NCBI GenBank assembly: GCA_903813345.2
Contig: CAIIXF020000006.1
Location: forward strand, 26,047,936-26,111,935
Direction: 5' to 3'
Source: Owenia fusiformis
Lineage: Eukaryota; Annelida; Polychaeta; Sabellida; Oweniidae
DNA: 64,000 nt
Part shown: in pieces, positions 3,301-57,300 of the stretch
Layout: each line of letters starts with the position of its first letter
Numbering within the stretch: position 1 is the first letter of the stretch
Translations under genes and position numbers: made by a program
The notes under the pieces: model-generated
Databases searched by the model: none
What the model was told of the DNA's origin: nothing
The model's input: the letters and a program-made list of their open reading frames with translations, nothing else

Positions 3301-6300
3301 AAAAAATACATCAGATGATGAGCAAGCTTAACGTTATAGATAAAATTCAAATGATTCAAAATGACACTAAGATTGTACATTCACTCATCTGAACAAAACC
3401 TGTACATTTAATAATCTGTACAAATCACTTATTTGAACATTCAAACACCTGCAAATTCACACACCTGCACAACTCACCTGTACATTCACTCCTTTGTACA
3501 TATACTCACTTGCACATTCACTCACCTGTACATTCACTTACCTGTACAAATCACTCATCTGAATCTTTACTTTTATGTACATTCACTCACCTGTGTATTT
3601 ACCCACCTGTACATATGTATACGCACCTGTTCATTCACTCACTTATACATATATTCAGCTATACATTCATGCACATGTACATTCACTCATCTGTACATTC
3701 ACTCACCTGAACATTCACTCAACTCAACTGTACAGTTATTCATCTATACCTTCACTTACCTGTGTATTAACTCACCTGAAAATTCACTCACTTGAACACT
3801 CACCCAACTGCACATTCACGCACCTGAACACTCATTCATCTGCACATTCACTCACCTGAACATTTACTTACCTGTACATTCTTCCATCTTCATGCTGACA
3901 ATACCATAGCCTATCCAGGTATCACCGAAACACTTCCCTTTCCCAGCACCAATGAAGAAGCTAGACTCTGAAACAGGAAAATGATTGGCAAAATTAAGTT
4001 TTGGTATATAACCTATATATAAAGAGAAGAAACCCAGAAGATCTTAAACTCAATTAGTCAATAGCTTCACATTTTTTCAAACAAGAAGTCCTTCAAAATT
4101 AACTTATTGAGATCAAATTGAAAATTTCCACATAACACTAAGAACTATGATATACATGTAAGCTAAAGTAGTTTAAACTTTATATCTGGCCTTTTTTGTA
4201 TACCGTATACTAATCTAGTATTTGTATATAAATAAATAATTTCAAACCCATAAAATATAGATAGAATGTGCGATGTCTACTTACTTTCCTCAGTGAATGA
4301 AGCCTGGAGTGCAAACAACATTTGTCGAGCATTAGCACGTTTAAAATCCACAGTAATACCAACATTTATGTCTTCTCTGAAAACTGGACCACCAAGAACA
4401 GTATTCAGCTCTTCTGCTGCGACCTCATCACTTGGACCATCAGCATTTGCAATAGCTGATAGCTTCTCCTGGTTTCTGTAATGGATTCCCATAACGTCAC
4501 CAGTTTTTACACTAAGCCTTGTGCTCAAGGGTACAGTCTGTAAGGTACCTAATGAAATGAAATAAATGAAAAGAATGATAAATAAAAATCACACAGTTAA
4601 CTCTCCTATACAGAAATTCAAGATTATCCTGAATTCCCTATTATCCTGAATTCTCCATCCTGATCCAATCAATTTTTATTATCTTGAATCCTATCATCCT
4701 GTTGATATGAACTGTATTATCCTCAACAAAGTTATCCTAAGCCTAACATGAACCCTATTATTCTGAACCCTCCTACCCTGAACCTAATGTAACAGAAAAT
4801 GTATGAAACAGCAAGTTAACTCTCTTCATTGTATAGAAATACAAGAAATCTAAAACTCCATTTGATATTTGAAAAGCAGAAAATAAAAAATACATCATTA
4901 AATCAACATTGAAGCAGATGACTAAATTGTTACCTGGGGTTGAGGCAGGAAGTGATGTCAGGGACATGAGGGTGTAGTTGGACTGACCACCCCCTGGTCG
5001 CCAGATTCCAATAAATGGAGTACTACTTGAGTCATCACGGAAAAAGCTATAAACAAGGCATAAAGAGAACCTTTTATCAAGTGAGAAAATTAGAAATTAG
5101 TACCTGAGCTCATCAAAAGAGGTCATACATATAGTTAAGGTCACCAATGCCGAGTCTGGGTCCAATGTAGAAATTTGTTTCACAGATGAATATATTAAAA
5201 TATAACATTACGAATATATTAAATCACTAGGGCAGAGCATTTGTACTGAAAGGAGTGTTTTCAGTACAAATATGTACTGAAAAATGTACTAGTTTTGTTT
5301 CAGTACAAATTTAAGTATATTTTTGTACTGAAAAATGCAATGAATTTTTTTCAGTATATTTTTCAGTACAAATTCATGTACTGAAAAATATACTGAATTT
5401 TAAGTACAAATTTAAGTATAAATATGTACTGAAAAATGTACTGAATTTTAAGGACAAATTTAAGTGCAAAAATATACTGAAAAATGCACTGAAAATTTAA
5501 GGATAAATTTAAGTACAAATATATACTGAAAATGTACTGAAATTTAAGTGCAAAAGTCAGTATAAAAATGTACTGAAAAATATACTGAAATTTAAGGATA
5601 ATTTTAAGTATAAATATATGCAATGAGAAATATTTGTGCCCAATAATGGAAATAAGAGAAAATGTAAATGTAAGGCAAACTTTATAAACTCTAAATCACT
5701 CAAAAAGTTCTTAGAATGGTGAAAAAGTGCATGATTTTAAAAGAATTTTTGGCCGGGGGGGGGGGGGTTTGCTTGGACCCCTGAAACCCCCCCAACAGGA
5801 ATGCTATTACATTATGAAATTATTTTGGATGCTTCTTTTACAGCATCCTTGAACCCAACTTAAAAGAGTCTCTCTGTAATCAGGTTTGTTTTGCCCTGTC
5901 AAAATATTTTGTTTTGTTAGTGGATTAATAAAGTTTCTTTAGACACATCCTTTAAAGCAGACTCTAATCAAACTGGAGAGGCTAGGTTTACTGTAATCAA
6001 GTGATTTCTTTTTTAGAAGTTATGTTTATGGATTTATTAAAAATGGCCCAAATCACTCAAAAAGTTCTTAGAATGGTGAAAAAGTGCATGATTTTAAAAG
6101 AATTTTTGGCCGGGGGGGGGGGGGGTTCGCTTGGACCCCTGAACCCCCCCCCCCCAGCCCCCCCCCAGGAATGCTATAACATTATGAAATTATTTTGGAT
6201 GCTTTCTTTACAGCAGACTTTAACCAAACTTAAAAGAGTCTCTCTGTAATCAGGTTTGTTTTGCCTTGTCAAAATATTTTGTTTTGTTAATGGATTAATA

Positions 6301-9300
6301 AAGTTTCTTTAGACACATCCTTTAAAGCAGACTCTAATCAAACTGGAGAGGCTAGGTTTACTGTAATCAAGTGTTTTCCTTTTAATGTAAGTTATGTTTT
6401 TGGATTTAACTATTCAAGACGCATCCTGTAATAATATCTGATTGCATTTTCTCCATCAATAAATTTATTTTTAGCCCGATCAAACCTATCAAATATAATG
6501 CATATATAAGGGTTATGTACTGGGAGGTTTTGGATACCCATATTTCCTGAGGGATAAACCCTTTATTTAAAACTGATCGTACACAACATGTGTATTCCAT
6601 ACCTTTTGAGGTTTCTAGATACATTCTACCTTATTAAGTTCTAAAATTCAAAAACATTAAAGGTACGAATTTTCTCAGTCTTAAAAATAAGTTTTTCATG
6701 AGATTTTCACTCATATTGCTTGAGCAAATTAATTAATTGATATCAAAATTAAAATATATAACATGAACATAGAACCTCATTTGTTCGAGTATAGCAAAAT
6801 CCATGGTATAGATGTCAAAGTCAGGAAGATGTCGTAATTCAAAATCTAAGTATATTTTTCAGTATAAATTTACACTTAAATATGCCCTTAAATTTCAGTA
6901 TATTTTTCAGTACATATTTGTACTTAAAATCACACTTAAATTTCAGTATATTTTTAAGAACATATTTGCACTTAAAATCACACTTAAAATTCAGTATATT
7001 TTTCAGTATAAATATATACTGAAAAATGTACTTAAAATTTCAGTACATTTTTCAGTACATATTTATACTGAAATTTGCACTGAAATTTTAAGTATATTTT
7101 TCAGTACATATTTATACTGAAAAATATACTAAAAAATTCAGTACATTTTTCAGTACATATTTGTACTGAAAACGCTCCTTTCAGTACAAATGCTCTGCCC
7201 TAGTGAATATAACATTACCTAAAAAACACAATTTAGAGTTTTGCTACGACGTAAAATGAATGTTACAAACTCATGAGCAATATTATGTAGTGCATAATGC
7301 AGTAATTTTTCTAAAACAAACATGTATTCTGAAAGGATATATATGTACACCATCTGTAGCCTTGATCCCTCATTAAGAGAGTTGAGATGAATTACCTAAC
7401 ACTTACCTAAAGCTGTTCACGAAGCCATCACATCTGAAGGGAATGCCTACAAGTAACTTTGCATGGTTGCCTCCCTGTCTGGGGAGATCTCTGGGATCCA
7501 AACCTACTTTAGCTGGGCAGAAACCTAAAAGTACAAAATGTACATACATGTCAGGCCCGTAGCCAGGATTTGCCAAGGGGGGGGTTCAGTTTTCAAATAT
7601 TTCCAGGGGGGTCCACATTTGACAATTTTGGCCCAAATATGGCTAAAATCACTTGAGAAGTGCTCAAAATGGTGAAAAACTGCATGATTTTGAAAGAATT
7701 TTTGGCCAGGGGGGGGGGGGGTTTCCCCAAACCCTGCGAACCCCCCTGGCTACGGGCCTGCATGTGGCTAAAGAGAGGAGGAAATACCCCAGATTTCATA
7801 CATGGACCTATCTCTACACTGTCATTATATGGAGAGAAGTTCAGCTATGAATTCTGGGGTATTCCAGCCTCTTGTGGATAAATGTTCTATGGTTCAGTTG
7901 CATCTACATCTGTGAAAATAACATGGAGAAATAGGAAAAATCCTTAGATTGAGAGACTTGGTTTGGGAACTGTTTACATACCTGGGGGAAAGGTACCAGG
8001 GGCTGCTGTTGTCTTGCCACTGGGGTAGTAACCATACAGCTCTGGAAATAGAATATTGAAGATCAGCATAAAATAAATAAACGAGGCATTAACATGCAAA
8101 ATTGTCACCACCTGCCATTTGTTACAGATGCTATCCACTGAATGCAGTTACAGATGCCAAACACTATTACAGATGCCAAACACCAACTGCTGAACACCAT
8201 TCACAAAGAAATTGAAGACAATAGCGTGTCAGTATTTCTAGCGGTGATATAAAATCTACATATTATAAGACTACACTTTATAAAGCCGTTTAAACATTTT
8301 TGGGCCCTTTATTTCAGGATATGAAAGCTAGAATTGGAATACCTTTTGAAATATTTTGGATGGATGCATGATAAAATTTTTTTTTATAAACTTAGTCCAA
8401 AAGATCTGACCTTTTTTACAAACCTAGTCCAACAGTTCTGAATTCATTTTACATTCATTGCCAAGTCTCACAAATTAGTAATAGCTCATAGTTTACCATT
8501 CTATGTTCAAGACTGACAGTCATCATAATTTATAAAAAGCTTTTTAATTGTCGTTTTTTTAAGATACACAACCTTGGATATTTTAATATGAAACAAATAC
8601 AAGGGTTAAATTCACTGGTCAGTCCATTTAATGGCTATATAAATAAATCTATGTTTATTGACAGTTGTCTAATGTATGCATGTTAAACTGGAGCATCAGA
8701 TTACAGTCAGCGACATAGTCAGGCTTAAGTTATTGATTTGCCAAACATATACAAATAGAAATACGCATTTTCAACTGAAACTTGAGCAACTGAAAGTTGA
8801 AGTCAATGATAGTACATGTAGGCATGGGCTTCCAATTCTAATTGAATTTATATAATATATGGCATCTGTTGGCAAAGACTACCCCCTTAGAATTGTGAAA
8901 ATTTGATTTATCTAGAAACGGCACATGATCTGTACAAACAAACAAACAAGTAACAAACAAACAAACAAGTAAACCTACCACAGTATGGCACAGTACAGTA
9001 CTGCCACCTTGTTTCTCTATCAGTAGTATAGCACCATGGACCATTAGGCTTGGCCTGAGGCCCAGTGGGGTTGCGGCAATAGTTATTGGCGTCAAGTACT
9101 GTGTTGTCTGGGAAGTTACTAGCCTTGTTTTGTCCATGTTTGTGTGGAAATTGACTGTCCCATCTCTGACATGTTAGGCCACCAGAGGTCTCTGATATCA
9201 TCCCCTGGTAGGAGTGTCCTCTCTTATCCTGCTTGCACTCTGAAGATAAAAACTTGCATTATCCAAAATCCTCACTGGCTAGCCCCACATAGGTTATTTA

Positions 9301-12300
9301 CCATTTTTGTGGTTGGGCAAAGTCACTTGCAAAAATTTGTAAATAGGCGTGTGTTGTTCTTTCATTCACAAATTAGCAACAATTTGCTTTTGGTATGCAT
9401 GAAGGTATTTTTTGAGAATTTTTGTCAACAGTAACTCATAGCAAGCTGAGACCAACACTATACGTCTAATACTATTTAACTGTTGTTGTCAAAAGTGTAA
9501 TATTTGTGGAAAATAAGGCATGTGTAGTAGCTGGGACCAATGGTGTAAATTACTAGATATAGCATGTACCCCATAAAAATTGGTATGAGCATGAATTCAA
9601 ATGAATGGCACTTTTTTTGTTGAAACCTTATTGATGGATAGAAGGTCAGATGGACAGACAAAGCAAATACATGGTGACATCAATATTTCACCAGTTCTTT
9701 AAAGAGTTTTTAACCTTTACAAGAAAGTAAAATATAGGACAGGCATGCCCGTAGCCAGGATTTGCCAAGGGGGTGTTTGCTTTTTGAAAAATTCCAGGGG
9801 GGTTCACTTGTGACAATTTTGGTCCAAAAATGGCCAAAAGTGCTCAGAATGGTGAAAAACTGCATGATTTTGAACGATTTTTTGGCCAGGGGGGGGTGCT
9901 CCAACCCATTGAACCTCCCCTGGCTACGGGCCTGATAGGCCTGGAAAAATAACCACTTAAGTGAGCTAAAAAGCACTGTTCAATTTAAAGATTGAACATT
10001 ACTGAATTACTGAAAAACTAAAACCATACCACATAATTTAACATCACAGTACTCCAATATGGTTGCAGGATCAGTGGTGTAACACCAAGGACCATTCGGC
10101 CTCCCATCAGGGTTCCTACATTTGTTGGCAACAGCTGTTAGGTTTCTCTCAGGGAAATCTGTAGGGCTGTAAGGAGGGTGACTGTGGGGCCACTGGGAAT
10201 CCCAGCGCTGACAACTCTTCGATGATGCTGTTGATGTTCTCTCGCCATTGTATTCTTTACCTAACGTTGTGATCTTGCAATCTAGAATATGATGAGACAT
10301 TTTTTATAAAGTCTCATGTTATATGAATTAATTTCAGTGTTAATGTTACAAAATGCTGATAACAATAATAAGCATGTACATGTTTTACATGTATATGTCT
10401 CTGGTTAAGACTGCTGCTTAATGTGGTGCATTGTAAAATAAAATAAAATAAAAAAACTTCTAGGATGAATACACTAACGTAATATACAGAATTCATAAAA
10501 TGTAGCCAGAGCCAATAATTCAAGCTAGATGCTTTCTGTTGAAAGCCCATGGTTCAAAAGTAAAATTTGAAACCAATCGGGAAATATGGGCATTCATCAT
10601 GAACCTGGCATGGCTAACTTTCTGCAATCAACAGACTAATACCCATCTTTCTAAAAATGATAAAACAAAGCTTAACGCTACATACCACACCATTGTATAT
10701 CGCAATACTCCCAGCGGGTGCCTGGCTCCATTGTATAGCACCAGGGTCCATCCTCTTTGTTGTCTGGGTTACGGCAATAATTGTTAGCATGCTTTAATGT
10801 ACGATCAGGGAACAGGCTAGGATCGTTACGGTCATGTTTATTTGGAGTCTGGCTGTCCCATCGTTGGCAGAGTTTCCCAGTTCTTGTGCGAGCTAGTTTT
10901 CCCATATATTCTTTACCAAGGTTTGAATATTTACATTCTAAAATCATACATTTATTCATGTCAGGTAATAGTCTTTATAATAAAGAATGGGCAATTCTAA
11001 GGACTTCCTTTTTAACATTGAAATGTATATACCAGTACATACATTTTTCATTTCTGGCGTTTCAGTATTTCAAAATAATAAATGTACATGTATTATCAAT
11101 TTTCAAAAGGTTTATCATTTATCATTTAAAGCAGGTCTTAAATGATAGAAAATCAAAGATACACATTCAACATTGCTAAACTGTGAGGTTTTTTAGCAGA
11201 TTCTTTCACATACCATCTCTCCCTGGGGTGACAGGGCTTATTGTTGAGGGTGGAATTGGGGGTCTGGTCCCAGTGCCTGCAAGGTAAAAAATGATTACTG
11301 CAAATATGGATGAAATGTCCTGCAACATTAAGTTTTCATTATCTAATGTCATAAGTTTATACATTAGGTAGATTAATTTTTTATGCTACTATTATTTAGT
11401 TTAAGTCATTTACAAGAATAACTGTAAGCACAGAAACTTTTCTAATCTACATTTTCAGTTTAAGTTATTTGCAAAAATTACAGCACACATTGAATGTTTT
11501 TTCTGCTACTTAATTTAGATTTTTAGACATTTACTAAAATTACTGAAACAAGGAAAAACTTCTTTGTTTTGATTAGTAGTATTTTCAATTGTTTCCACTT
11601 CAATATATAGAATTATACAGAAATGTCAAAATATTATTTTAAAATATAATAATAACAATAATGGTCCAGTGATTTACCTGTAAAATGTGCCCTGACAGCA
11701 TGTGTGCTTCTGATGATAGAATATGCTGCAAAATCTATAGGTACGCCTTCAGTGAAGTCTTCATCATACAATGGGGCATTAAGCGTCCTAAAAATGAAAA
11801 AATAGATAAAACTGTACCAATCACATCTATACCCATCTTCGCACGCTCGGTCTTCACTGCATTCATCGACCGACGGGAGCCGAGTGAACGAAGATGATCT
11901 ATACCTAAATATTTATCATAATGTAAGCACAAGCGCCATAAGGTAAATGACAAAAAGTACAACAAAAACAGATAGAAAAGGAACATTTAAGAGCATAACT
12001 ATTCATAAAATAAATCTTGAGCACCTCTCAAATTATTATCTAGCATATGAAGACATTTTTTGGTTGTATTTACCTGAACAATTCTGAGTATTCTACGACA
12101 CCATCCAGCCCTCTGGAGTTAGGTACTGCTGGCTTGGTGTCATTCTTTGCATAGTGTATACCTATATAGTCTCCTATTTTCACCTAGAAACAACACGAGA
12201 TGATCAAGTGAGGTCCAATGATGCTGCGCATATAAAGCTGCATTCTCCTACAGCTGTATATTCTAAACTGCACAATTTTCCTTTCACCTATTTTCTTCTT

Positions 12301-15300
12301 CACAATCATCCAAAATCAGGGTGCAATTGGAAGTATGAACTAAGAGTACATGTACATAGAGGTCACTTCATGTAACTTTGTCAATTTCATTAATATTAAT
12401 CTTATTATTATGTATCTTAGTATTTTTGTGGATTAATTGGCTCTATTAAAGTTGATAGTTTGATTTCTCAGTTTTTGTCCATACAGTAGATAGTCTAATT
12501 AATTATCTTTGAAATACTTCAAATAGTTGTTTGTGTTACTTCTTACAAACATAAGGATTATGCTTTCCTTCATGTATTAGAATCACATACAATATCACTC
12601 TACTATACATGTACCTTGCATTTAGTGTTCATGAGCAACCCATTTGGCTTATTAGTAATGATTATGTATTTGTTTTTATTTGTCTGTTCCTTATTAATGG
12701 TTTATCGGAAGACTGTTCATGTTAATAAGGTACTTGCAAAATATACTAAACAATACAATTAGACAAACAGAGTGTCTTATGCATTTCTAGGGGTTAGGTA
12801 TAATAGAGTAATATACAGTAAACAAACAAGTAAATTCAAATACAAAGTAAACATCAACTTACTGGAATGGGTGGGTCTATGGCCACTATGTGAAACCCTG
12901 GTGTGTTAGGCGGGATCAAGGTCTTACCCACAAGTACATCCATGCTCCCTCCAGCGTATCTCCAAACACCAAAATATACCTACAAGAATTGTGTTAGATT
13001 AGAAAAGTAGAGAGTTAAAAATGTAGGAAGCAATATTTTCAAAGTTTTCTTCACAATCATAATTTTATATTCTGAAAAAAAATATTGATTGAGATGTCTC
13101 ACTAATGCTAGTATTACATGCAAACATGTCAAAGTTAATTCGTTGAAAATTGAAAAAAGGACCTGAACTGCCAGATAGTTACAATGTAACTCTCAGAATC
13201 GATGATTATAAAGTCAAAAACATTTTTTTGAAATAGACATAAATACCATGGATGAAACGAAGATCAGAGCGATACATTTGTAAAATCATGAGAATTTTTT
13301 TAAAACAGTCTTCAGAACATTCTCTCAAATAATATATAAGCAGTATAAACAAGCAACCAATCACATAAAACCAAACAAACAAACTTACTTTGGTGTCAGG
13401 TGTAGATCTCTGGTACTCCCATGCTGTTACATAACCATCACAGGGGAACTGATTGTCCACCATTAGATGAGCCCAGTTGCCTCCACGCCTAGGTAGCTCT
13501 GTAGCAGGCCTCCCCACCTTACTGGGGCACACCCCAGGGTACAGAGGGGTAGTGGGGGAGGGAGGAGGTGGTGTCACATTTGCTGAAAATATATCAACAT
13601 GTTAATTTTATGAAGAAATGATTGTCATTATTTTTACTTTATTTCAATTTATTTTTATATCATCAAATTATGACAATCATTTATTTACTGATGGCATCAC
13701 TGTCCATCATTGTATACACTGGGGGTACACAATTTTGCCAGTCCACCTCCAAATGGTTCATTGATTATATGTAACTTACGACAGTATGGGATGTCACAGT
13801 ACTGCCAGCGTACTTCAGGGTCTGTAGTATAGCACCATGGTCCACCTGGTTCCCCATCAGGATTACGGCAATAGTTGTTGGCATCGGACAGAGTGAGGTC
13901 TGGGAAGTTATTGGGGTCAGTCTTGCCATGGGAATGTGGTGTCTGTGCGTCCCATCGTTGACAGAGGAGACCATATTTGGTCTGGGCAACTTTCCCAGTG
14001 TAGTCCCTGCCTTGCATACTGTCTTTGCATTCTGGGATTTAAAAAGTATTTATGTATTAAATTGAAAAGTAAATGCAAAGATTCTCATTTAATAAACATA
14101 AAACTCTACAATGTGTTATTCCTGTGGCCGTCAAACTAAAATGTTGGATTGTTGGAAAAAGCTTTTGTCATCTTTTTCACTTTTAAATAAGTTGGTCATT
14201 TCTGCATCTTAAATACTCAATGACTTCTATATTTGATCAAATGTCTCAAATTGTTATTCAGATTACATTAAGGAATTATAAGGGAAACACAGGAATAGCT
14301 TTTCTCTTGTAAAGGTTGCTTCCCAGATTTTGAACTCCCAGAGTCTATATCATTTGTTGCCACTTTAAATTGGCCATACTTTATATCTATATCATTTGTT
14401 GCCACTTTAAACTGGCCATACTTTGTATCTATATCATTTGTTGCCACTTTAAACTGGCCATACTTTGTATCTATATAATTTGTTGCCACTTTAAATTGGC
14501 CTAACCTCATATCTATATCATTTGTTGCCACTTTAAATTGGCCATACCTTGTATCTATATCATTTGATGCCACTTTAAATTGGCCTAACCTCATATCTAT
14601 ATCATTTGTTGCCACTTTAAATTGGCCTAACCTCATATCTATATCATTTGATGCCACTTTAAATTGGCCATTTTAAATTGTATCTAACATGTATATCATT
14701 TGTTGCCACTTTAAATTTGTCATACCTTGTACAATCCTAAAGCTTGCATCCATTCTAAACAATCCACTGTCTTGGTATTTACTGATCTTCAGGCGGTAAT
14801 TTTGATGTCTAATGAAATGATTTGGATAATTCACAGACTCAAAGTCTACATATCCTGGGTACCAATTGTCCTTTCTCATTATAAATGTGGCATCCTCGTA
14901 GAATATTTTTTCATTTCTAGGATCATCGTTGTGCTCTAGGAATAACAGGTAACCATAGTGACGAAGATAGAATCCTGGGAATTCAGATGACTGAAAGGAG
15001 ACGGTGTTGTTCCCAGCAGCACTTAGGCCTGGTTCAAGAGTGAACCATGGGTGCTGTTCTCCTTTGAGAAGATATGCCTCTTTTCGTTCATTGTAGCCAA
15101 AGTAGTATTCTGGAAAGTTCTGGGATTGCAAGTAGAAAGGACCACTTTCTGAAAAGTATAAACAATATGATTTTTAAAAGACGCCATTATTTGTAAAGTG
15201 AAAAACTTTTACAAGCTGTATCTCTAGTTCAAAAATCATGATAATACGAATTATTTCTTCTCAGGAGTTAAATGTAGATTTACAATAGGAATCTTCACGT

Positions 15301-18300
15301 GGACTGATTTCATGGCATTCTGGTTTACCCCAGGTTTACCAGACCCCCCACTTATGTGTCCTTTGCAAGACATCCACTTTAAAAAGATCACGACAAAACA
15401 GTGCAGTTATTGCGATGATTTCATGTTACTTACTGACATGGCAATCAGGGTTGACCAGATTTCTGTAAAACTTCCAATAGCCTCTAGCACCCAGGTATGA
15501 TCCGAATCCAACTGAGTTAACATACACTCCCTCTTGGAATGTATCAGGATCAGTCCATGTCATGAATGTATTAACTCCTTGACACAGTCCCTCTCCTGCA
15601 CTGATCTACAATAAACAATACAAAATAAGCATTTCAATTATAAGATGAGAAGATACATTGAATATTGCAAAATTAGGCAATGTATTCAAAGGTGTTGAAT
15701 ATAAAGTTCATAGAGTAGTTCTAAAATGTCATACTTTCAATTATTGACATTTTTCAATCATCATTTTTTGTGAAAAGGGGTTAAATCAGCAATGAAATAC
15801 AATTACAGTAATTCTAGATTGTAAAGAAATACTAGGGAATAAGGACCTTATGAGGAAAGGTTCTCACAAACTTACCATTAGACCCTGTGTGGTAGGTACC
15901 CATGATACCCAGAACTGTCTGTATTGGTTACAATCCACAATGTAAGGTGTCTTGACTACAACCTTTCTGGGATATGTGTTCTGTCCTTTGGCTATGAATG
16001 ACTGAGTGTTTCCAGCGCCACCTATTTCTACTTGGTAAACCTGTAAGCATAGGGGTTCAGATGTTGTAAAGGGTGTAGAGGTTCATGTAAAGGGTGTAGA
16101 GGTTCATGTAAAGGGTGTAGAGGTTTATGTAAAGGGTGTAGAGGTTTATGTAAAGGGTGTAGAGGTTCATGTAAAGGGTGTAGAGGTTCATGTAAAGGGT
16201 GTAGAGGTTCATGTAAAGGGTGTAGAGGTTCATGTAAAGGGTGTAGAGGCTTATGTAAAGGGTGTAGAGGTTTATGTAAAGGGTGTAGAGGTTCATGTAA
16301 AGGGTGTAGAGGTTCATGTAAAGGGTGTAGAGGTTCATGTAAAGGGTGTAGAGGTTCATGTAAAGGGTGTAGAGGTTTATGTAAAGGGTGTAGAGGTTTA
16401 TGTAAAGGGTGTAGAGGTTCATGTAAAGGGTGTAGAGGTTCATGTAAAGGGTGTAGAGGTTCATGTAAAGGGTGTAGAGGTTCATGTAAAGGGTGTAGAG
16501 GTTCATGTAAAGGGTGTAGAGGTTCATGTAAAGGGTGTAGAGGTTTATGTAAAGGGTGTAGAGGTTTATGTAAAGGGTGTAGAGGTTCATGTAAAGGGTG
16601 TAGAGGTTCATGTAAAGGGTGTAGAGGTTCATGTAAAGGGTGCAGAGGTTCATGTAAAGGGTGTAGAGGTTTATGTAAAGGGTGTAGAGGTTTATGTAAA
16701 GGGTGTAGAGGTTCATGTAAAGGGTGTAGAGGTTCATGTAAAGGGTGTAGAGGTTGGTGTGTACCAATAAAACACAAGATTTGCAATAAAATCACTGTTT
16801 GAACTTTTTTATGTGATGAGTGCAAAAGCTGATGACTATAAAAACCTTTGTACATCATGTCATACTCCAAGGACTCAATAATGACATTTCTGGCATCGTC
16901 AGCAAAGACTATCAAAAACTCTTCTTGAATATTTTTCAAATAATTTCTTCAGCTCATACCTGGGTGTAGTTGGTAGTTTCCTTGGGCGCAAGATAGATGG
17001 AGCCAGCTTTGCAAGTTTTCAGCTCAAACAGTATATAGTTGCGTTCTCTTAGGTCCAGCCAATCAGTGATCCAGTATACTTTGTTATCATTGGGGGTCTC
17101 CGTTTCAGTGAATGACTCCCCTGAAACATTTACATGTGTCATTGTTATATGGGGTGCCGTTATCAAGGATCTACCATTTATTTTTTATCTATTCAGCAAA
17201 AGTATATATGCATAATATAAGAGTCAAGTGTAGACAAGGCATCGAAAATGTCACCACCTGCCATTTGTTACTTACACCGGACACTGACCACCAAAAGCCA
17301 AATGCAGATTGCCGACCACCAAAAAAGAACTTGATCATTAATGTGTATATCTCAGTGTATTTACTTACGCATATCTCAGTGTATTTACTTACGCATATCT
17401 CAGTGTATTTACTTACGCATACATGTATGTGTAAAAATTAAACATTAACTTGCATCATACTTTCCTTAGCAATAACATCCCAAAAGAAGCGAGACATTCA
17501 GAATTTACAGTCTTTGAAAAAGTACCATGTAAAGGCAGAATAAGCCAAATGAACAATCAATATTTAGATTAACTATTATTACATGGTATCACCTGTAAAG
17601 TTTTTTCAAATCTGGAAATTTTTTCTGTATCTATTTAAAAACAAAAATAGGATCTATTGTATGTTTAAGCCAATATAAAGATGGCAGTATAATCTAAACA
17701 GGATGATTTTATTGCCATCTTTCTATAAAAACTTAAAACACACATAACCTCTAGTATCAAACTTACCTTGAAACATAGCTCTTATTGCATATGTACTCTT
17801 TATCACTTGAAATCGTGCTAGGTTAAATGTGGTTCCTACTTTGGCCTGTGCATCATATAGCGCTCCATTGATTGTCCTGAACAACTCTGTGGGACCAACT
17901 ACATCATCCCCACCCCTAGAGTTGGGAATTGCCACAGACTTAGTGGCAGCATCATAATGCACACCTAGAAATATGTTAAGAAGTACTATTCAACAAAAAT
18001 TAACTTTAATGCAAGCCTTATTATAAAGAATATTTTTAATTTTTTTATTCTGTATTAAGAATTAGGTACATATAGCCCCTCTCCCACCTACCTCATTCTT
18101 TCAATAACAGGTAACAATTATATGTATCATATCATAGAGATCTGGAAAGGTCAAAGATCTGGAGAAGTTAGACATGGGGGAGGAGATGGGGATCTGGAGA
18201 GGTCAGAGATGTGGGTTGGGGTCAAAGATCTGGAGAAGTTAGACATGGGGGAGGAGATGGGGATCTGGAGAGGTCAGAGATGTGGGTTGGGGTCAAAGAT

Positions 18301-21300
18301 CTGGAGAAGTTAGGCATGGGGGAGGAGATGGGGATCTGGAGAGGTCAGAGATGTGGGTTGGGGTCAAAGATCTGGAGAAGTTAGACATGGGGGAGGAGAT
18401 GGGGATCTGGAGAGGTCAGAGATGTGGGTTGGGGTCAAAGATCTGGAGAAGTTAGGCATGGGGGAGGAGATGGGGATCTGGAGAGGTCAGAGATGTGGGT
18501 TGGGGTCAAAGATCTGGAGAAGTTAGACATGGGGGAGGAGATGGGGATCTGCAGAGGTCAGAGATGTGGGTAGGGGTCAAAGATCTGGAGAAGTTAGACA
18601 TGGGGAAGGAGATGGGGATCTGCAGAGGTCAGAGATGTGGGTTGGGGTCAAAGATCTGGAGAAGTTAGACATGGGGGGGAGATGGGGATCTGCAGAGGTC
18701 AGAGATGTGGGTAGGGGTCAAAGATCTGGAGAAGTTAGACATGGGGGAGGAGTTGGGGATCTGCAGAGGTCAGAGATCTGGAGGGCTCAAAGAGGTCAGG
18801 GCTGGGGGAGGGGTCAGAGATCCGAATAGATCAGAGACCTGAGGTTAGAGATTTGATGGGCAAGACTATCATAACCTACCTATATAATCCCCTTTCTCTA
18901 CTCTTACAGGTGTAGTAAGTGTTTGTACACTTGGTCCAAGAGGTCCAGGTTGCATTGCAGTCTTGGCTATTAGAGTGTGATTCTCAGATCCAGGTGTTGG
19001 CCTCCATATTCCTATAAATGCTATAGAGTCGGTGTTGATGCGGAAATATTCAAACCCAGTTACAACCCCACCGCACGGGAACCTGAAAATATATATAAAT
19101 AGTGATGAGTATATGAGGTCAGGCCCGTAGCCAGAATTTCCCAAGGGGGGTTCACTTTTCCAAAAAATTCTAGGGGGTTCACTTTGGTAAATTTGGCTAA
19201 AAATCACTCAAAAAATAGTCAGAATGGTGAAAAACTGCATAATTTTGAAAGAAATTCAGGTTCGCCTGAACCCCCCGAACCCCCCCCTGGCTACAGGCCT
19301 TGAGGTATACTGTACCTACAGTAGATTAAATATAATAACATGGTAATACATCACTGACATTCAAAATTCACATTTTACAGCCTCTAGATCATATAAAAAT
19401 TTACAAAATATTAACTGAAAAAAATGAGTATTTGTAACTTCTGCAAATAGCAGATGCATAGATTCACAAATGGGTAGAAACATTGATTCTGAAACCATGG
19501 TGACATCGAAATCGAGGTCAGAGAAGACATCACAAATATCTTTCTTGCTTACCACCTTCATTTGCCAAATCAAATCAAATCTACCATCTAGATTCTGAAT
19601 GCCAGACATGAACTTGATGTTGCAATCAATGGAAACATATTCCTTAAATTGAATTGAATTGAATAATTTGGAGGCATGACTTCTAAATAAAAACTGACAC
19701 AGGTAAGCCAATTTGCATTTAATGGTGACCTTATGAGATTGTGAGGAATATAAACAATGAATAATAAAACAAATATTCTATTTTCAGTGAATACCTGCAG
19801 TTTAATATACTCCTAACCCTCCAGGCAGGGAATATAATATTGCTTATATAAAGATGGACATGTATTCATCTCAATAGAATAAAATATTTGTCTAATATCC
19901 AGGCCCATAGTCAGTTTTTGCTAAGGGGGTTCACATTTCAAAAAATTTCAAATGGTTCACATTTGACAACTGTGGCCAAAAATCACTTGAAATGTGCTCA
20001 GAATGGTGAAAACTGCATATAATATTGAAAAATTTTGGGCCTAGACTACGGGCTTGTTATTATTGATAAATATATCAAAATTTAATATTAAATTATTCGA
20101 AGAGTTTTTACAAAATTTTGTCATTTGACCAATCAGTGTTGAGGGTCATTTCTATATAATTTTCCATTTAAGAGTCATCTTTGAATTATGTACCCTGCGT
20201 GCAGAGTCTAGTTAAACTACACTCTGCCTAGTAGAGACCATATTACAGTAAGTAGCCCCGCCCCCACGACGGGTACTGGTGACAGTTTCGGTATATCACT
20301 TTTGACCTACGCGCTAATCAGCGAGCTTGAAGAAACATACGCCAAATGCGTTCTAATTAAATATGCGCATGTCATTGGTCAATTCCGGGCTCAACGATGA
20401 TGTCAGAAGGAATGACCATATAAAGAACGTCGGTCAAATTTGGCCGACGAACACTGATTGGCGCGGTGAGTTCACAGGTTTATTTTAGTTTGAAAGAGTG
20501 AAGACGAAGCTCTCTTTTAAGAAGTGAAGTCAAACGAATGCAAAGGGTATGAATTATGGGGGTTTCCTTCCTCTTATTTGTATTTATTAGGATTGGTATC
20601 AATATGGCGAATTGAATTGAACACATGTTTCTCTTGAACCAGTCATCAAATGTTCTGGAAAAAAAATTGAACAGATCATCAAACTAGTGATCATCTTTTG
20701 AATGGTAATTTTGAAAAAGTATATATACCTGTACTTCTCTCTATATTTTTTTAGAAAGCACATTAGACACTTCTTTTGTTCTTGGTATCATATATTCGGA
20801 ATGAAACAAAACATCTATCTGAACCTCAATGGAACAAAACGACAAAAACACAATGTGTTTAGATCTTTCAATATTGTAACTGTACAAAGGAAAGTTTGGT
20901 TGATTTAAAAAAAGTATCTTGTTAATGACATAAAAGGTTTACTTTAACTTTTATCTATTTTTAGGGTTTTTGTTTTAATTTTTTAAACACTTTTTGTTAA
21001 ATCAACCAACTTTTCCTTTGTATAACTATATTGAAAGGTCTAAGAAAATGCGACTGCACTCATCACACCACCCTACCCCTGGCTACGCCCATGATATTTT
21101 ATATTTTATTGACATATTATAGTATCAAAACATGATTCAACATAACATGATAATAAAAAAATACATGTTTATTAAAATATAATGTTTATGTTTAAATGGT
21201 AGCCATTGATTATAAATCAATACATTATTGTTGGGAATCAAAGTGACATCCAAGTGTCGAGAAATGGAGAAACATGAAAACTGTTCATTTTGGATAAAAT

Positions 21301-48300: not shown

Positions 48301-51300
48301 AGTACAAAGTTTTATCTTGTTTTACACATGAAATCTCACACTGGACAACAAAGTAGTTTTAAGTGTGACATTTGTATGAGAGAATGCTGTACAAACTCGA
48401 GACTTCTCAACCATATGCGGATCCACACGGGAGCAAGACCTTTTCAATGTAAAATATGTTTTGCTGGATTCGCACAAAAATATAATCTTAACGATCATAT
48501 GAATACCCACTTAAGGGAAAAGACATGCAAATGTGAAATATGCTTAAAAACATTCACAACAAAAAGGCTTTTGAAAACTCACTTACTCACACACAGTGAC
48601 GAAAGACCATTCAAATGTGACATGTGCAGTAAAGCATTTAAACTCAATGCAAAACTCCAGCGTCACAAAATGGTTCACACAGGAGAAAAACCGTTCAAAT
48701 GCCAAATCTGTTCAAAACGTTATACTGTGAAAGCATATTTGATAAATCATTCTAAGATTCACACTGGAGAGACCAGAGAATATTTCAATTGTGCCACATG
48801 TTCCAAGTCTTTTACTGAAAAAAGCAACTTGAAGAGGCATATCAGACTCCACACTGGAGAAAAACACCATGAATGCGAAATCTGCCCCAAGAAGTTCAAT
48901 AGCAAAACAGACTTGATTCAACATGAAAACTCTCACAAAGGTATCAAACCCTACAAATGCAATTTGTGCCCCAAGGCGTATTCACACACTGGATCTCTTA
49001 GTCAACACAAACTAACCCATGCTCCAGCTATACAATGTGACATCTGCAACGAGACATTTCCATCAAGGTTTACATTCAATGGACACATGAAGCGTATTCA
49101 CAATCGATAAGAATATTTATCACTACTACCTTGGTTATATCGCTTAGGGAATTAATCTGTTTAGATTAAATTATTCAGGAACTGTTTATTCAGCTCAGCA
49201 GTCTTGAACTAGGTCTCAATTACCTTTGTATTTAAACACTTCAGGAACAGTTCATGAACTAAAGCAAGGGGAACTTGAACCACAAAAGGAAGATAGGTTG
49301 GAACATTATGTCCTTATTAAGTCAGATGTCAAAAATCAGGAATTTCATGTGTGGCAATTTTGCTTGCCAAGAATGGTTAATTTACAACATCAGAATGGAG
49401 CAACGGCATATTTTTACAATATTAATGATCTGGATTATTAGGGAGTTTACGGTTTCATTATTTCCACTGTTGGATATCAATCTAAAGTTTTACCTTATGT
49501 TTTTAATTTCAAGATAGATCCTCATTTTTCGGGTTAAAGTCATGAGAATAAGTTTTTCTAAGAAATATCAATAAAACCTGATTATTTTACATTTCATCCT
49601 AAGAAAATTACCTGCACCATGCACATGATGTAACAGGTAAATCATTTGCATGTAACACTCGATTCTGTTTAACTGCAAGCTAAGAGTTAACAAACATGCA
49701 AAATCTCTCCACCTGCCATTTGTTACAGTGGCCAAATGTGGCTATGTAGTATGTTACCACTTCTGGTAGTGACATAATAAAAAGTAGAAAGTCCTTGATT
49801 AGAATGGTATCCCTTTCATGGGCATAAAATATAGATGTCCCTACCTGTTCTCAACCATAAGATGTGCCCATATGCCTCCCCGTCTAGGTAGGTCTGTGGG
49901 GGGCCGGCCAACATATTGAGGGCAGGTGTCTGGCAGGGGAGTGGTTGGCGGACGTGTTGGAGCAGGTGTGGTAACATTATACATCTCTGAAAATATATTG
50001 TTGAATAAGATAGTTCCATAAGTTCAGAAATTTCAATGGATTCCTCATTGGAGTCCAAATTTTTTCAGGGACACATAACTCACTCCATACATGTACAAGT
50101 TAAGTTAAACATTGATTTATATTCCAGATACATAAAGCAGAAAATTTAGTGACCTATATTTTTGGTACTTTTAAAAAGTAGGTCACTAGCTGAACGAATG
50201 CAGGTGGTGTGAAAAATAGCTGAACTATCTTGTATAATGTACCTATATCATATCATGTTTGAATAAATAAATATTTGAAACAAATAATAAGTTTAATACA
50301 ACTATTGGAGATCACATCCTATCACATTGTCATGAAAAGCCATTGCAACACACAAAATGGTAACATTTCAAAATTTATCAAAATATAAAAAATCAACAAA
50401 AAAACTGTTTTAAAATGTATTTCAAAATATAAGCAATATTGCATGTGAAACAAACCACATAAGTTTTTAATAAAGAAGAGATGTTATTTTTCTGTGGTGC
50501 TGCAAAAAGTAACTCACACAGTCAACTCACTCAGTCAACTCACTCAGTCAACTCACACAGCTTCTATTGAATAAATATCAAGCTGAGAAGATTGCAGAAG
50601 TTAAGAGATTTGGTATCAGGGTGTGCATGGTTTTCAAACAATTTGTTTAATAGAAATTAACAATGAAATGGGTAGAAGGGTCCCATATACATGTACCCCT
50701 TTTTAAATTAGTTTCCCAAAATTCAACCTACCACAGTAAGGTATAGCACAATATTCCCATCTTTGTTGCTCATCCATGGTGTAACACCAAGGGGCTTTGT
50801 CGCCATCAGGGTTGCGGCAATAGTTGCTAGCCTCTGCTAAGGTATTATCAGGGAAGTCTGCGGGATTACGTCTGGTATGTTTATGTGGAGTCTAAAATTA
50901 TATTAACATTAGGAGTGATGATTCATATGTAAAAATGTTTTCAAAATTTTACCAATGTCCTGGTTTGTACATTTATATGAATGATACTACAATAAGAAAA
51001 GATCATCAATGTTTATAAAATTCAAAACAAATCTTGAAATCTTTTTGGCTCGCTCAAGTTATGCCACAATTGCACATCCCTGACTGAAAGCTGGCTACGT
51101 CCCTGTATGTGAGAACTCTAGTCTTGTATTTTGTGAGAACATTTACATTATACTACAATATTGACATCTTTACTTAGTCAGTAAGAGGCTATTATACATG
51201 TACCTGACTATCCCACCTCTGGCATTTCTTCCCAGTTACAGTCTCACTAGTTCTGCCCTGGAACTCTGCCCCCTGTGGGCTCTTCTTACATTCTATAAAC

Positions 51301-54300
51301 ATTAAACAAATACAGACATTCTAAATTATGATAACTGCATTAGCTATCTATCTTACAAGTTCTGTCCTGACATATATTGTATGTGACCCCTTCTTACATG
51401 TCTTACATTCCATAACTAACACAGACATCAAACAGATGGCCCTATTAAAATATTCATTGATTTCCAATCAGAGTGAAAGAGTATGGAGAGGGGGTTTGGA
51501 CAAGACTACAGTATATATAGCAAGTAAAATGAATAACTTGAGAGAAATACAGGTACATGTACATGTGATTACAATTGTCTTTTTGAAGTTAAATGTTGTT
51601 TACCGGTATATTGTACACTGTAGTGGCCAATATGTCATTATTATTCACTGATATCAGAGAGACAATAAAGGAAATATCAAAAAACATACCACAAAAAGGC
51701 ACTTCACAGTAATCCCAAACTGGCTCTGGAGCTGTTGTATAACAGAAGGGGCCCTCGGATCTTAACTCAGGGTTCCTACAGAAGTTTGATGCTTCATTCA
51801 GAGTGTTGTCAGGAAATCTTGATGCATCAGTGTTTGGATGTGTATGGGGGGTCTGTGTGTCCCATCGTTGACAGGTGAAGCCTTGTTTGGTGCTTGCTAC
51901 AGACCCCTTGTATTCAGTGCCAAGATTTGTCAGTTTACATTCTGAAATAAAGTCACGAGTTTTACAAAAGATCATTATACAAGTCAGGCCCGTAGCCAGG
52001 ATTTCCCAAGGGGGGTTCACTTTTTGAAAATTTCAAGGGGGTTCACTTTTGAAAATTTTGACAAAAATGGCCAATATCACTTAAAATGTGCTCAGAATGA
52101 TGAAAAACTGCATGATTTTGAAAGAATTTTTGGCCAGGGGGGGGGGGTTCGCTCGGACCCATCGAACCCCCCCCCTGGCTACGGGCCTGCAAGTGCCAAA
52201 CAGAGTGCATGCAATAGAGCAAGAAATATGTAGAAAATAAGGGAGCATCGCCGGTTAGAGTGTACTCAATATGAACATGAGGCCAAGTATGATACATGTA
52301 TACACAGATCTACAAAGTATGGTCATATTACTTACAATGCATACATGTACACTGTATATTACAAAACAGAATCAGGCTTTTACATGCTATCCAGGGGGCT
52401 TTTTCTTGCCAAACTTATGTAGGGGGCAGGTAGGGGGTGTACAACAAAATAGAAAAGTATTTGCTCACCACACATTGGTATTGCACAGTACTCCCATTTG
52501 GTCTTTGTATCGGTAGTAAAGCACCATGGACCACTTTGTTTATTTTCTGGGTTGCGGCAATAATTCATTGCATCCTCTACTGATTGGTCAGGGAATTGAT
52601 CACCCGTGTAGCGGTAATGGGTATGTGGCGTTTGAGACATCCAGCTCTGGCATTGTTTCCCAGTGGCTGTTTGTGATACCTTCCCCTTGTAGTCCTTGCC
52701 ATTGACTGTCACTTTACATTCTAGAGAAATCAGCCAAAACAAAGGAGAAACATTATAAACCAACACAACACAACAAACCAAAACACAACACAACATAAAT
52801 ATTAAAGCTATGGATCGTAAACCAAGTGTCAAACCAAGGTGAAAAAAATGTTTGTTAGATAAAACATATTTATATTTGGAAAGTTTGATTGCAACAGTAT
52901 ATACATCTGATATTGTAAAGTCAATAGAGCCTGCCACATGAATGGGTCAGTCCTATAGTTTCATATCAGGCACTTTGTATTCTAATAAATTAAAACCAGT
53001 AAATTAATGTTTTAACGACTGTTTATATAGGTTGTTTTAAGGTCAACATCATGTTACTTAATCTTGTCAAATTTTTCAGATGTTCTTTTGTGTCTTGAAA
53101 TAAATAAGTTTTAAACCGTTTTGTATTTTATAGAAAATCCATCTGCCGAGAATTTCCATGGTTGTATTCAACAATAATTAATGAATTAATAATATATTTC
53201 AAAATTCAATACGGATATTTACACATGGTTGAATGCATCGTTTAAAATCAAAATATTCATATTGTAATGACATTTCCTCAAAGTTTTGTTTCCTGACCAC
53301 TGTATTGTTTTGCATAACTAACTTAACACATGGGCTTTCAATAAAATAAAAGCCCTTGCTTAACCATGCATTGTTACACCGGTAACTAACCTTTCGTCAC
53401 ATCAGGGAGGATAGGAGTTGTTGACACTGGCAGTCCAGTTGAAGGCACCCCTGAAGTGCAAATAGTGGAACAATATATACATGTAAATATATGTCATATT
53501 GAACCAATCCAGAAAATCTTGCTACCTTTTGGTAATGATGTCATTATAAACATTTCAATATATTACTTATTGCTAATTTTCAAAAGTTTCTAACAATTTT
53601 GCTACTCGCAAAGTATGACATCATACATTGTAAATCTACCAAAAATCCCTAGGTTCCTTATTTCACCAAAATGGGTCATGGTTTATTGGAGAGGTTATCA
53701 AGAATGAACTTGATTGATGCAAAAGCTTTCATTTGAACTATGGAAGAGACCTTCAAACTTGAAGATTCTGAAAAAATTACATGCAATAATTCAACCCATA
53801 GACATATACATGTACAACTATTTTTTATATGTCTGTCCAATTATAGTCACCCACCTGTGGACCATGCCCTGAGTGCAAATGTTGACCTCGTTGTCCCATA
53901 TTTGGAGAAGTCATGATTGGTTCCAAGTACTAGGTTCTCATGGTAGATTGGGGCATTTATTGTTGTGAACAACTCAGTTTTTCGCACCACACCATCATTG
54001 CCTGAATACAAATTTGGAATTGCAAAATACATGTAGTTAAAAACAAACAATTCAACTGGTCATTGTTCTCTAAAATATGTAAATACCAATAAAGCTAATA
54101 CTGTATAAGTTATCTATATTCTTCTGTTAAAATCCCTATCTTTCATACCTATTATACAAATAGACAAATTAAAATAAAATAATTGAAGAAAAAATGAAAT
54201 ATAAAATACTATACCTCTTGAGTTTGGAATAATTGCTACCTTGGTGTCACCATTCTGGGCATAGTGAATACCTAGTATGTCCCCTGTTAGGACAGCTAAA

Positions 54301-57300
54301 TTTGCAGCCTGGCGGAATATCCCGATTGGTCCAGGTTTTACCTCAGTTGTATAAATCAACTGTAAAACTCTTGGCCCAGAAGCTACAAGTAAATAATTGT
54401 TATTAGGTCATAATCAATTATATAAGATCCATTTCAATATTTTACAAGACAAATTGGCTACCATCAATACAAGAAAAATTTAATTTAAGTTTCATCTTTT
54501 ACTTCTCTATTATGCCTAAGTTTGTAAGGTCGGGTTGGCAACTTGGCTTTCAACATTGAGGGAGACCTATCTATTGCAGCAGTTATTCCTGGCATAACCA
54601 TTAGCATTTTGTTAACTTGGGCAAAGATCCTGGCATGACCATAGCAGTGCTATCATGAAAACCTGGCGCAACCATAGCCTTTATTTGACCTTTGACATAT
54701 TTAATCCTGATAGACAGAATGTGTTATTGAATCAAACGTTCTTGAATAAGAACAGAGAATATTTCTAAATCATTAATAATTTCCAGAAACTCTCCATCTA
54801 GTCTTATTCCAGAATGTTTGATTAAATAACACATACCGCTTCTATAAGGATTAAGTTACTCGAGTGTCTGGCCAATTCTTGGCTAGATGTTGTAATTCCA
54901 TCTGGAACACCGTGAACTATTGAAAAATTTCTAGTCCGAGTTCAGTAAATTTAAGTTATATTTTAAAAACCGTCATGTTAATATTTCATGAATTGAAATG
55001 GAACTGGCTGGGCTCCTTGATGAAATATTGCATGATTTCGTCAGGACTTCATCTACATGTAAAATTAAACAAAGGCTCCAAGAAAAATTGCGATATTTGG
55101 AAACTGGCACATGTCGTTAATGTCTGACATTAGTAACTGGCTATAAATTCTAAGTTAGCAATCCAGAAGATCAGATGTGAACTAATACATTGATCACACT
55201 ATAATGTGTGTTTTGGATTTTTGGTGAGGTAATGAGACCAAAACTCGCAATTCAAATTGTGAAGTGGAAAAATGGCGGACATTTGATTTCAAATTTTATG
55301 ATTATGACATGACCCGTATACAGCGACATGACTCACATCCAGCAGAGTAAGAAATAAGCAGGGATTTACATGTATCTTTGGACGAAGGCCACGATATAGT
55401 GGCCTTAGAAGAGGGTAAGGATGTCAAAGACTCAAAGGTCATGACAACACTGCAACAGTCGTGCCAAGACCATTGTGCAAGTTAATATGCTCATGGTTGT
55501 GACAGGAATAACCATTGCGAAGAACAGCAAATGAATTGAGGCTGTAGCCAAGACCCGGGAGCCAAGACCAACAAAGGGTGGCTGAGAACGGGCCTGAGAG
55601 AAAGATGAGATTCTTTCCTCTGGTCTAACTTGATCGAAATCACAGTGTTAAACAGGAATATTGGTTTTATTCTCAGACTGCTCTGGTTAATAAAATCACT
55701 TTCATTCACGTACAGTTGGGGACAAAAATAAATGACAGGTCGATTTTCGATCACCATTTCCTAATTATGGTGGTCTGAAAGCCCATAACTTCCAATATTG
55801 TCTAGATACATATCCCTTAAAATTTGTATATTTTACATTTTGTATAATCTCATCCACTGATGTATGGCCTCTTGTAAATTCTCTTATTTTTAACATGGGA
55901 AATCCTCACTTCAGCAAATCCACCTGTCATTTATTTATGTCCCCAACTGTAAGTTGACATCCCTTATCATTTCTTATTGAACTTCACTTTTTGAATACTC
56001 GTTCAAATGACTATATATTGACGTTTGTCAAGCCTAACATATTATCCCAAAATATTCACAAATAACCCTGTAAATGTACAAAAATAGAGAGTTTCTCACA
56101 TTTCGCTGACTTTTCCAAAACAAATATGGCGGGCTAAAGGGTCAAGGTCACGCTCGCAGGTATTCCCCTTCTGAGTAAAGGGGAATTCCCTTTTCTAAAA
56201 GTAAACAAAACCCACGTGATATTTTCGAAAGTGAAACCGGAAAAACTTACTTGTTTTCCTCCAAATATCAATGTAGACGGTCCCGCTTGCTTGGATTCTA
56301 CGATATTCGAACGCATCAATGACTCCATCACAAGGGAAAATATTATCGGTCATTATATGGATCCAAAGACCACCCACCCTCGGGAGATTCGACATTTCGC
56401 GGCCAATCCACAGAGGGCATGGACCTGGGACTGGTGTAGTAACTGGTGGTTCTGTAGGAATAGTTGCTTCGTCTGAAAATTAACATGGGCAATATTAACC
56501 TATATGGAGAAAGAACTTCAACAATATGGACAGTACTGTATTGTAACCCCATTCATCTTACTGTTCAAGCTTATGGTAAATTGATTCAAATGGACCATTT
56601 TTGTTTTTTTCGGACAAAGTCACTCCTTACCACAATAAGGAACATCGCAATACTGCCATCTTATCTCCTCGTCCATTGTATAACACCATGGTCCCTCAGG
56701 TTCATTGTCAGGATTTCTACAATGCAACAATTCAAAATTTGCTACAATATCCATTGCAAGAGTGTACTTAAGTACAGATATCACATACCCCCTCTCTGTT
56801 AATATATGATTGACAAGGAGTACAATGAGTTATCTCTTTTATTCAAATCCAATCAGGAACAGTGAGGGTTCAGTAGAAGAGTGACAACTACATGTATGTT
56901 CACAGGACACTATATTTTTGTCACGGGTAAATTAACATATATCACAGGGGCATGTATAATCTAGAAAGCCCACGAAACATGAACAGACATGAACGGTGAT
57001 AGTATCAGATAAAATACCTGCAATAATTGTTCGCATCTGCCAGTGTTTTATCCGGAAAGTTGCTCGGGTCCTTTTTACTGTGTGAATGGGGTGTCTGGGC
57101 GTCCCAGCGTTGACATTGGATATCATCGTGGGTCTCAGAAACTCTTCCCATATACTGTTTACCAAGTTTTTCTAGCTTGCATTCTACAATGGAATTATTG
57201 ACAGTGCCACGGAGTATGGAATTTTTATACACTTTATTGAAGTGGACATGCCTCCATTTCAATAACGATGGTAGTTCAAAGTCATGGAATATTAAAAATG

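Follow-up and report, generated by a model that had tools for sequence, protein, structure and literature searches.

What is the domain that recurs four times along one strand of a 64,000-nucleotide stretch of the Owenia fusiformis genome, and to what kind of protein does it belong? The stretch, here called the window, is C6:26,047,936-26,111,935 (contig CAIIXF020000006.1 of assembly GCA_903813345.2), and positions given without a contig are counted from its first letter. A preliminary description, made from the sequence of the window alone, had pointed to four copies of an undescribed domain, to which we refer as domain X. We conclude that X is real. Our preferred reading, which we hold with about even confidence, is that it is an undescribed extracellular, probably β-rich, mobile domain, one of several putative ligand-binding modules in large type I membrane proteins that would be endocytic.

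In the window X is encoded by 13 exons, all on the minus strand, which splice models drawn from the exon translations join into four copies. A profile of 15 X members from outside the window was run against the 2043 window open reading frames (ORFs) of at least 20 residues, and its E-values are given here exon by exon. Copy A comprises exon 1 at 56251..56472 (CPLWIGR...IWRKT; E=1.1e-20), exon 2 at 54215..54382 (1.2e-5) and exon 3 at 53855..54001 (2.5e-7). Copy B has exon 1 at 49845..49986 (4.4e-9), exon 2 at 18880..19082, 30.8 kb downstream of exon 1 (2.1e-19), and exon 3 at 17767..17964 (2.3e-16). Copy C has four exons, at 13389..13582 (1.1e-21), 12863..12979 (0.0062, weak alone), 12074..12183 (1.4e-8) and 11678..11787 (2.4e-6), and copy D has three, at 7407..7524 (7.1e-11), 4934..5046 (9.9e-7) and 4285..4548 (1.3e-17). 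Every one of the 13 exons is flanked by AG/GT, and the frame of each copy stays open from start to end; all four copies enter and leave in phase 1, the last exon of each closing with a donor and without a stop codon. The spliced copies are 159-163 residues long, counted from the first Cys, and pairwise identity among them is 32-48%. The copy borders first proposed (56472/53855, 49986/17767, 13582/11678 and 7524/4285) coincide to the base with the first acceptor and last donor of these models. The motif pattern proposed with them held in part: some motifs are common to the copies, but copy D diverges (CPAKVGL, without NSRG and without RST), and ELFxTINAPIY, proposed as a shared motif, occurs in its full form in copy A only. 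The alternating hydrophobic runs noticed at the outset are present in the corrected copies as well, a pattern that is consistent with a β-sandwich fold. X also has two conserved cysteines.

The independent profile recovers the 13 X exons at E-values of 1.1e-21 to 0.0062 and no other window ORF at E≤0.01. With the same profile, 20 triplet-shuffled windows gave a best E per shuffle of 0.008 to 4.2. The copy C exon 12979-12863 (E=0.0062) scarcely beats the best shuffle by score; we accept it because it is placed between its neighbours and is spliced in frame. The first join of copy B is the least secure, because its 30.8-kb gap contains three plus-strand C2H2 zinc-finger ORFs (26291-27781, 30540-32264 and 47212-49110); an arrangement of nested genes would account for it. 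We saw no sign of a block duplication in which A would pair with C and B with D: the tree has no starred branch, and it joins A and B weakly (81/41).

Several repeats occupy the introns. Tandem arrays lie at ~16.1-16.8 kb (a short unit, HPLHEPL in reading) and at ~18.2-18.7 kb (a 71-base unit, WRGQRCG in reading). In the minus reading, the long intron of copy B has three near-identical stretches, spaced ~1.8 kb apart, at ~38.9, ~37.1 and ~35.3 kb, and an interspersed element (reading ARSQGG...) is present in introns at ~52.2, ~9.9 and ~7.8 kb and also at a locus elsewhere (L010).

Is X a known domain? Against Pfam-A the curated cut-off was reached by none of the four copies, by none of a set of 14 copies and by none of 18 alignment rows; the best stray match was DUF7265 (E 0.018, one of the 14 copies). 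NCBIfam and PHROGs gave only stray weak matches, none below E 0.03. X profiles run against PDB sequences had best E-values of 0.17 (4 rows), 0.15 (14 rows) and 1.5 (18 rows), copy B alone reached 0.059 against viral protease chains, and a distant X relative alone found nothing at E≤5. These stray PDB matches (viral proteases from E 0.059, ZC3H12C at 0.15, an Mg2+ transport protein at 0.17) we judge to be chance. The Pfam and PDB searches made with 4 or 14 copies, and those with copy B alone, were run on draft exon joins with some errors: intronic residues were still present in A, a part of the middle was missing from C, the first junction of D had incorrect residues, and B, both as Pfam query and as single PDB query, contained two residues too many. 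Corrected copies, or none from the window, were used for the 18-row Pfam and PDB searches, NCBIfam, PHROGs, the identities and tree, the independent profile and the hhalign comparisons. Scans of contig collections were based on 3 rows of the alignment, which had 14 at that stage, with patterns from two short stretches each, and their reach is confined to close relatives: viral contigs gave 38 pattern matches and a collection of genome contigs 122, none confirmed, and within that reach we set aside X as a viral or bacterial domain. A literature search with general terms found no title on the domain among those listed. The description of X as undescribed is thus upheld by the four-copy Pfam search and the profile search of PDB, neither with a significant match; as far as these tools reach, X appears to be unnamed in Pfam, NCBIfam, PHROGs and the PDB sequence families.

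The alternative that survives best is that X is an ordinary lectin or β-sandwich (galactose-binding-like, CUB-like or DUF4082-like) that has drifted past the range of sequence profiles and binds carbohydrate in immune or mucus proteins. We regard it as a real possibility, though one that falls short of even. It would suit the alternating hydrophobic strands and the company that X keeps, which includes SUEL lectin, CUB, laminin-G-like and AbfB domains, and DUF4082 is touched by 1/14 and 1/18 members at E 0.087, short of the cut-off. (A DUF4082 search of this genome had no match anywhere, its controls being equally without match.) It is at odds with the failure of every X member to reach any Pfam cut-off, with the absence of a significant match in the PDB profile searches, and with hhalign, where X as a drifted copy of kringle, AbfB, Methyltransf_FA, laminin-G or the small LDWC domain described below, each aligned from this genome, was rejected at probabilities of 0.1-0.3%. 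A bolder proposal is that X founds a new superfamily of animal domains, with the core hydrophobic-x-C-x-G-x-V-x-x-W/F-x-Y ... WRP ... Y/F-x-L-[IV] ... GD-x-[IL]-G, and that its kringle-linked branch makes up giant endocytic receptors of an undescribed class, similar to the LRP system but evolved on kringles and X in place of LDL-A repeats and propellers. This we offer tentatively, and consider doubtful at present.

How widely is X distributed? The genome searched amounts to 498 Mb in 525 contigs. Counted by exon, a tblastn search with copy B had 59 candidates, of which 55 match at E≤1; 12 of these are the window's own exons and 43 lie outside, so that the count of four copies, correct for the window, falls well short for the genome. 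Eleven of the matches span at least 146 of 162 positions in a single stop-free frame. Four clusters (C6:25.96-26.10, C2:26.40-26.47, C2:16.77 and C1:51.72 Mb) hold 42 of the 55, the other 13 being outside them. From the tblastn lists and with other seeds, more distant relatives were gathered on other contigs. At ten distant loci the best E of an X profile, built in these genome-locus scans from draft exon joins that were partly wrong, ranged from 3.7e-14 to 5.6e-4 per locus, second exons being weaker (up to 0.16), and all five distant relatives tested with hhalign matched X at a probability of 95.7-98.2%. At one distant locus, C1:46.03 Mb, an X-like domain shares a single open frame with a Ser/Thr-rich stalk and a transmembrane (TM) helix. 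At C1:56.28 Mb (L021) X shares an open frame with a SUEL lectin domain, and further on along the same strand come CUB, Sushi (just at the cut-off), a Ser/Thr-rich stalk, a TM helix and a tyrosine-rich frame; at C1:29.41 Mb X lies near LDL-A. The tyrosine-rich frame of L021 contains several tyrosine motifs, and the layout of this locus hints at a receptor that signals.

In the ten single-frame X copies checked outside the window the best acceptor is in phase 1 in all ten and the best donor in eight; of the two misses, one copy has no good donor in range and the other is in a frame that runs into a SUEL domain. Phase-1 acceptors and donors are likewise available for 6/6 window kringles and for the one AbfB checked, though a phase-2 acceptor outscored the phase-1 one at kringle 10681-10938 and a phase-2 donor drew level at kringle 10025-10282. 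The contexts of X comprise kringle and AbfB; SUEL, CUB and Sushi; LDL-A; and the Ser/Thr stalk with TM helix, with Methyltransf_FA and laminin-G also nearby. X lies in one open frame with SUEL, with the stalk and, at one locus, with AbfB; its other neighbours have exons of their own on the same strand. With phase-1 borders on both sides and several domain contexts, X bears the marks of a mobile extracellular module of class 1-1, and it appears to have been shuffled among large cell-surface proteins of this animal.

Where, then, are the membrane anchors? Downstream of X in three of the clusters is a single exon that encodes a TM helix together with a short tail; the motif in the tail is FDNPVY on C6, FDNPTY at C2:26.47 Mb and FDNPAY at C2:16.77 Mb. 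The C6 exon closes the series ~105 kb outside the window, while those of the two C2 clusters lie 0.8-1.2 kb past the last X, with borders that fit a phase-1 acceptor. The membrane anchors and FDNPxY tails of this set of modular surface proteins lie outside the window and are invisible from the window alone. The pattern F.NP.Y has three matches in 236,435 bases of 30 loci, chosen for holding X or kringles, and all three have a TM helix upstream; in each of 20 triplet shuffles there were 0-5 matches, and a TM helix accompanied none of them. From these counts the pattern alone is at chance level, whereas its placement after a TM helix is above chance. A TM scan gave eight candidate frames, of which L019, L021, L027 and L028 are taken as receptor tails, the others being L018, L022, L033 and L036. 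A similarity search with the C6 tail gave seven matches at E≤10, including itself and the C2:26.47 Mb tail (E 0.2), and also matches on C11 and C7. By the same search three more TM exons were found (E 0.006 to 0.09), two with FDNPxY (C4 and C3) and one with NNPLY, lacking the F (C1:32.37 Mb), all on contigs that have other kringle or Methyltransf_FA exons. Among the matches listed, the nearest kringle or Methyltransf_FA to these three exons (L043 with NNPLY, L044 with FDNPAY and L045 with FDNPVY) is ~19, ~27 and ~15 kb off, and no X match is nearby in those lists; the tail may belong to a wider set of receptors. FXNPXY/NPXY signals are reported to be bound, in clathrin-mediated uptake, by PTB domains such as those of Dab2, ARH and Numb (PMC3522622, PMC4389405).

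The modules around X are arranged with some regularity. From its N-terminal side the window reads laminin-G twice, Methyltransf_FA, AbfB, kringle, X-A, three kringles and X-B, then Methyltransf_FA, AbfB, kringle, X-C, three kringles, X-D, three small Cys domains, Methyltransf_FA and AbfB, the repeating unit on C6 being Methyltransf_FA, AbfB, kringle, X, three kringles, X. The home-made profiles for kringle, AbfB, Methyltransf_FA, laminin-G and LDWC derive in large part from the window itself; their matches there are partly circular, and the independent evidence is that of Pfam. All of these modules are on the minus strand. Two Laminin_G_3 domains, placed by home-made profile scan, lie at 62690..63028, near the N-terminal end of the series (Pfam 8.9e-12), and at 61009..61326 (2.8e-12). 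They are followed by a Methyltransf_FA (PF12248) of two exons at 58829..59555 (4.4e-11 for 58829-59188; the exon 59385-59555 has no Pfam match alone, and the home-made profile was built partly from it), an AbfB (PF05270) of two exons at 57594..58427 (1.5e-9 and 6.3e-12) and, upstream of X-A, a kringle of two exons at 56626..57184 (1.7e-12 and 8.1e-11). Between X-A and X-B are kringles at 52464..52721 (2.3e-26) and 51685..51942 (2.9e-23), both with phase-1 borders, and a third, immediately upstream of X-B, of two exons at 50727..51293 (4.2e-17 for 50727-50891, the other exon by home-made profile only). The second Methyltransf_FA, at 15438..17109, has three exons (5.3e-8 for the middle one); the outer two are matched by a home-made profile built partly from them, and the first has no PF12248 match alone. 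Next come an AbfB at 14724..15143 (4.7e-28), the kringle upstream of X-C at 13775..14032 (4.7e-27), and between X-C and X-D the kringles at 10681..10938 (1.5e-25), 10025..10282 (5.8e-23) and 8974..9240 (4.7e-23). Beyond X-D lie the three small Cys domains (..CxLDWC), one of them partial, at 1579..3288, then a Methyltransf_FA at 640..1113 (1.2e-22) and an AbfB at 10..357 (2.8e-15) that runs off the window.

The small Cys domain is a second unnamed module in the window, in that it meets no Pfam cut-off: a unit of ~47 residues (CP...C..GG......CxLDWC) seen at 3288-3214 (partial), 2283-2146 and 1719-1579, with nine matches in the genome at E≤1, C9 and C5 included. At the other end a further laminin-G exon is found 1.2 kb beyond the window (Pfam 1.5e-12), with a hydrophobic stretch that is a possible signal peptide, and in the 8 kb past this outermost laminin-G exon six home-made profiles recognise no domain exon. 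Kringles are plentiful in the genome, with at least 150 matches (the best 150 of 198 candidates scored). A dense Methyltransf_FA cluster is present at C9:19.946-19.961 Mb (best E 9.9e-34), with no kringle there among the matches listed.

What might such proteins do? The C6 series would start with laminin-G-like domains, continue with alternating X and kringles, and end with the membrane-spanning exon and its FDNPVY tail. X, the kringles and the lectin-like domains would bind ligand jointly, the FDNPxY tail would engage adaptors with PTB domains, and receptor and cargo would enter the cell via clathrin-coated pits; the receptors are probably taken up by endocytosis. Seen directly are X, the order of the modules in the window, their phase-1 borders and the membrane/FDNPxY exons that follow three X clusters; we infer a single transcript for the C6 exons, ligand binding by X, its β-sandwich fold and the role of the tail as an uptake signal. 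Given the lectin-like neighbours, glycans or microbial surfaces are a fair first guess as ligand.

Several points weigh against this endocytic reading. The C6 cluster was read without 47.5 kb (25,944,501-25,950,000 and 25,980,001-26,022,000, where kringle matches are listed), and the window exons may belong to more than one gene. The ~15.7 kb that follow the window on its downstream side (26,032,194-26,047,887) have no exon that six home-made profiles recognise, and this stretch may mark the border of a gene. As a search for further tails, that with the C6 tail is weak, reaching the C2:26.47 Mb tail only at E 0.2 and missing that at C2:16.77 Mb, and at C1:51.72 Mb, a kringle/X cluster, the 10 kb read contain no TM/F.NP.Y exon. 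Outside the four clusters are 13 of the 55 X matches, and at three X loci outside them (C1:56.28, C1:29.41 and C12:2.88 Mb) no kringle was found by profile scan of the stretches read. In addition, NPXY is present in integrins too (PMC4389405), so that the tail could serve adhesion instead.

In a different picture X would be mainly a secreted module and the C6 exons several genes for mostly secreted modular proteins, with the membrane exon in the last of them only. We think this rather unlikely. The ~15.7 kb after the window with no recognised domain and the several X loci with no membrane exon in the stretch read would fit it, but the last exons of copies A-D end in a donor, not a stop, and in two other clusters a membrane exon follows the last X within 0.8-1.2 kb. 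Less probable again, and in our judgement improbable, is that these are integrin-like adhesion proteins, in which X would bind matrix and the NPxY tail would connect to the cytoskeleton via talin-like PTB domains. A long modular array with laminin-G-like and kringle modules would be in keeping with such a role, as would the use of NPXY motifs by integrins (PMC4389405). What speaks against it is the recurrence of the full F-D-N-P-x-Y form, which is typical of LDL-receptor relatives, in three X clusters and in two weakly similar tails (C4 and C3); in a third relative, at C1:32.37 Mb, the F is missing. That the copies are chance likenesses of motif or a repeat artefact, as the low-scoring copy C exon and a copy B join that crosses 30.8 kb and three nested zinc-finger ORFs might suggest, is already excluded for domain X by the recovery of 13/13 exons and nothing else at E≤0.01 with the independent profile, by in-frame splicing and by homologues throughout the genome, the sole remaining doubt being the join between the first two exons of copy B.

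If the endocytic reading is true, a domain that is blank in the libraries searched is a building block of animal surface receptors, and the FDNPxY tails point to a kringle-based uptake pathway. Naming X could also make other 'uncharacterized' proteins readable.

Finally, how do these proteins compare with systems already known? Among recently discovered domains of aquatic invertebrates, ApeC is a parallel (PMC8361754), from which X differs in matching no Pfam family. The kringle is a tandem, mobile domain spread by shuffling (PMC3927612). X proteins share tandem kringles with the plasminogen type, but no trypsin domain is present among the chosen window exons scanned with Pfam. Pfam, for its part, includes an ApeC model. 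Another likeness is to Kremen1/2, type I membrane proteins that combine a kringle with an adjacent domain of another kind. Kremen is described as composed of kringle, WSC and CUB (PMC3927612), and Kremen1 as a type I kringle receptor internalised by clathrin via an atypical dileucine signal, without a typical tyrosine-based one (PMC3522622). X, in contrast, has no Pfam WSC or CUB match (4 copies, 14 copies or 18 rows), the X series has far more modules, and three X clusters carry FDNPxY in place of the dileucine signal so described. With the LDL receptor and LRP the likeness lies in the modular ectodomain, the single membrane pass and the FXNPXY tail, found for X downstream of three clusters; the LDLR tail itself carries FDNPVY. 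The difference lies in the ectodomain, which in the X series is filled with kringles and X. By pattern rather than profile, LDL-A and calcium-EGF have no match in the window and the C6 pieces read, and YW[TS]D has only two matches in the C6 pieces, both on the opposite strand. The putative X receptors thus resemble parts of Kremen1 and of the LDL-receptor relatives, and on the features tested are members of neither.

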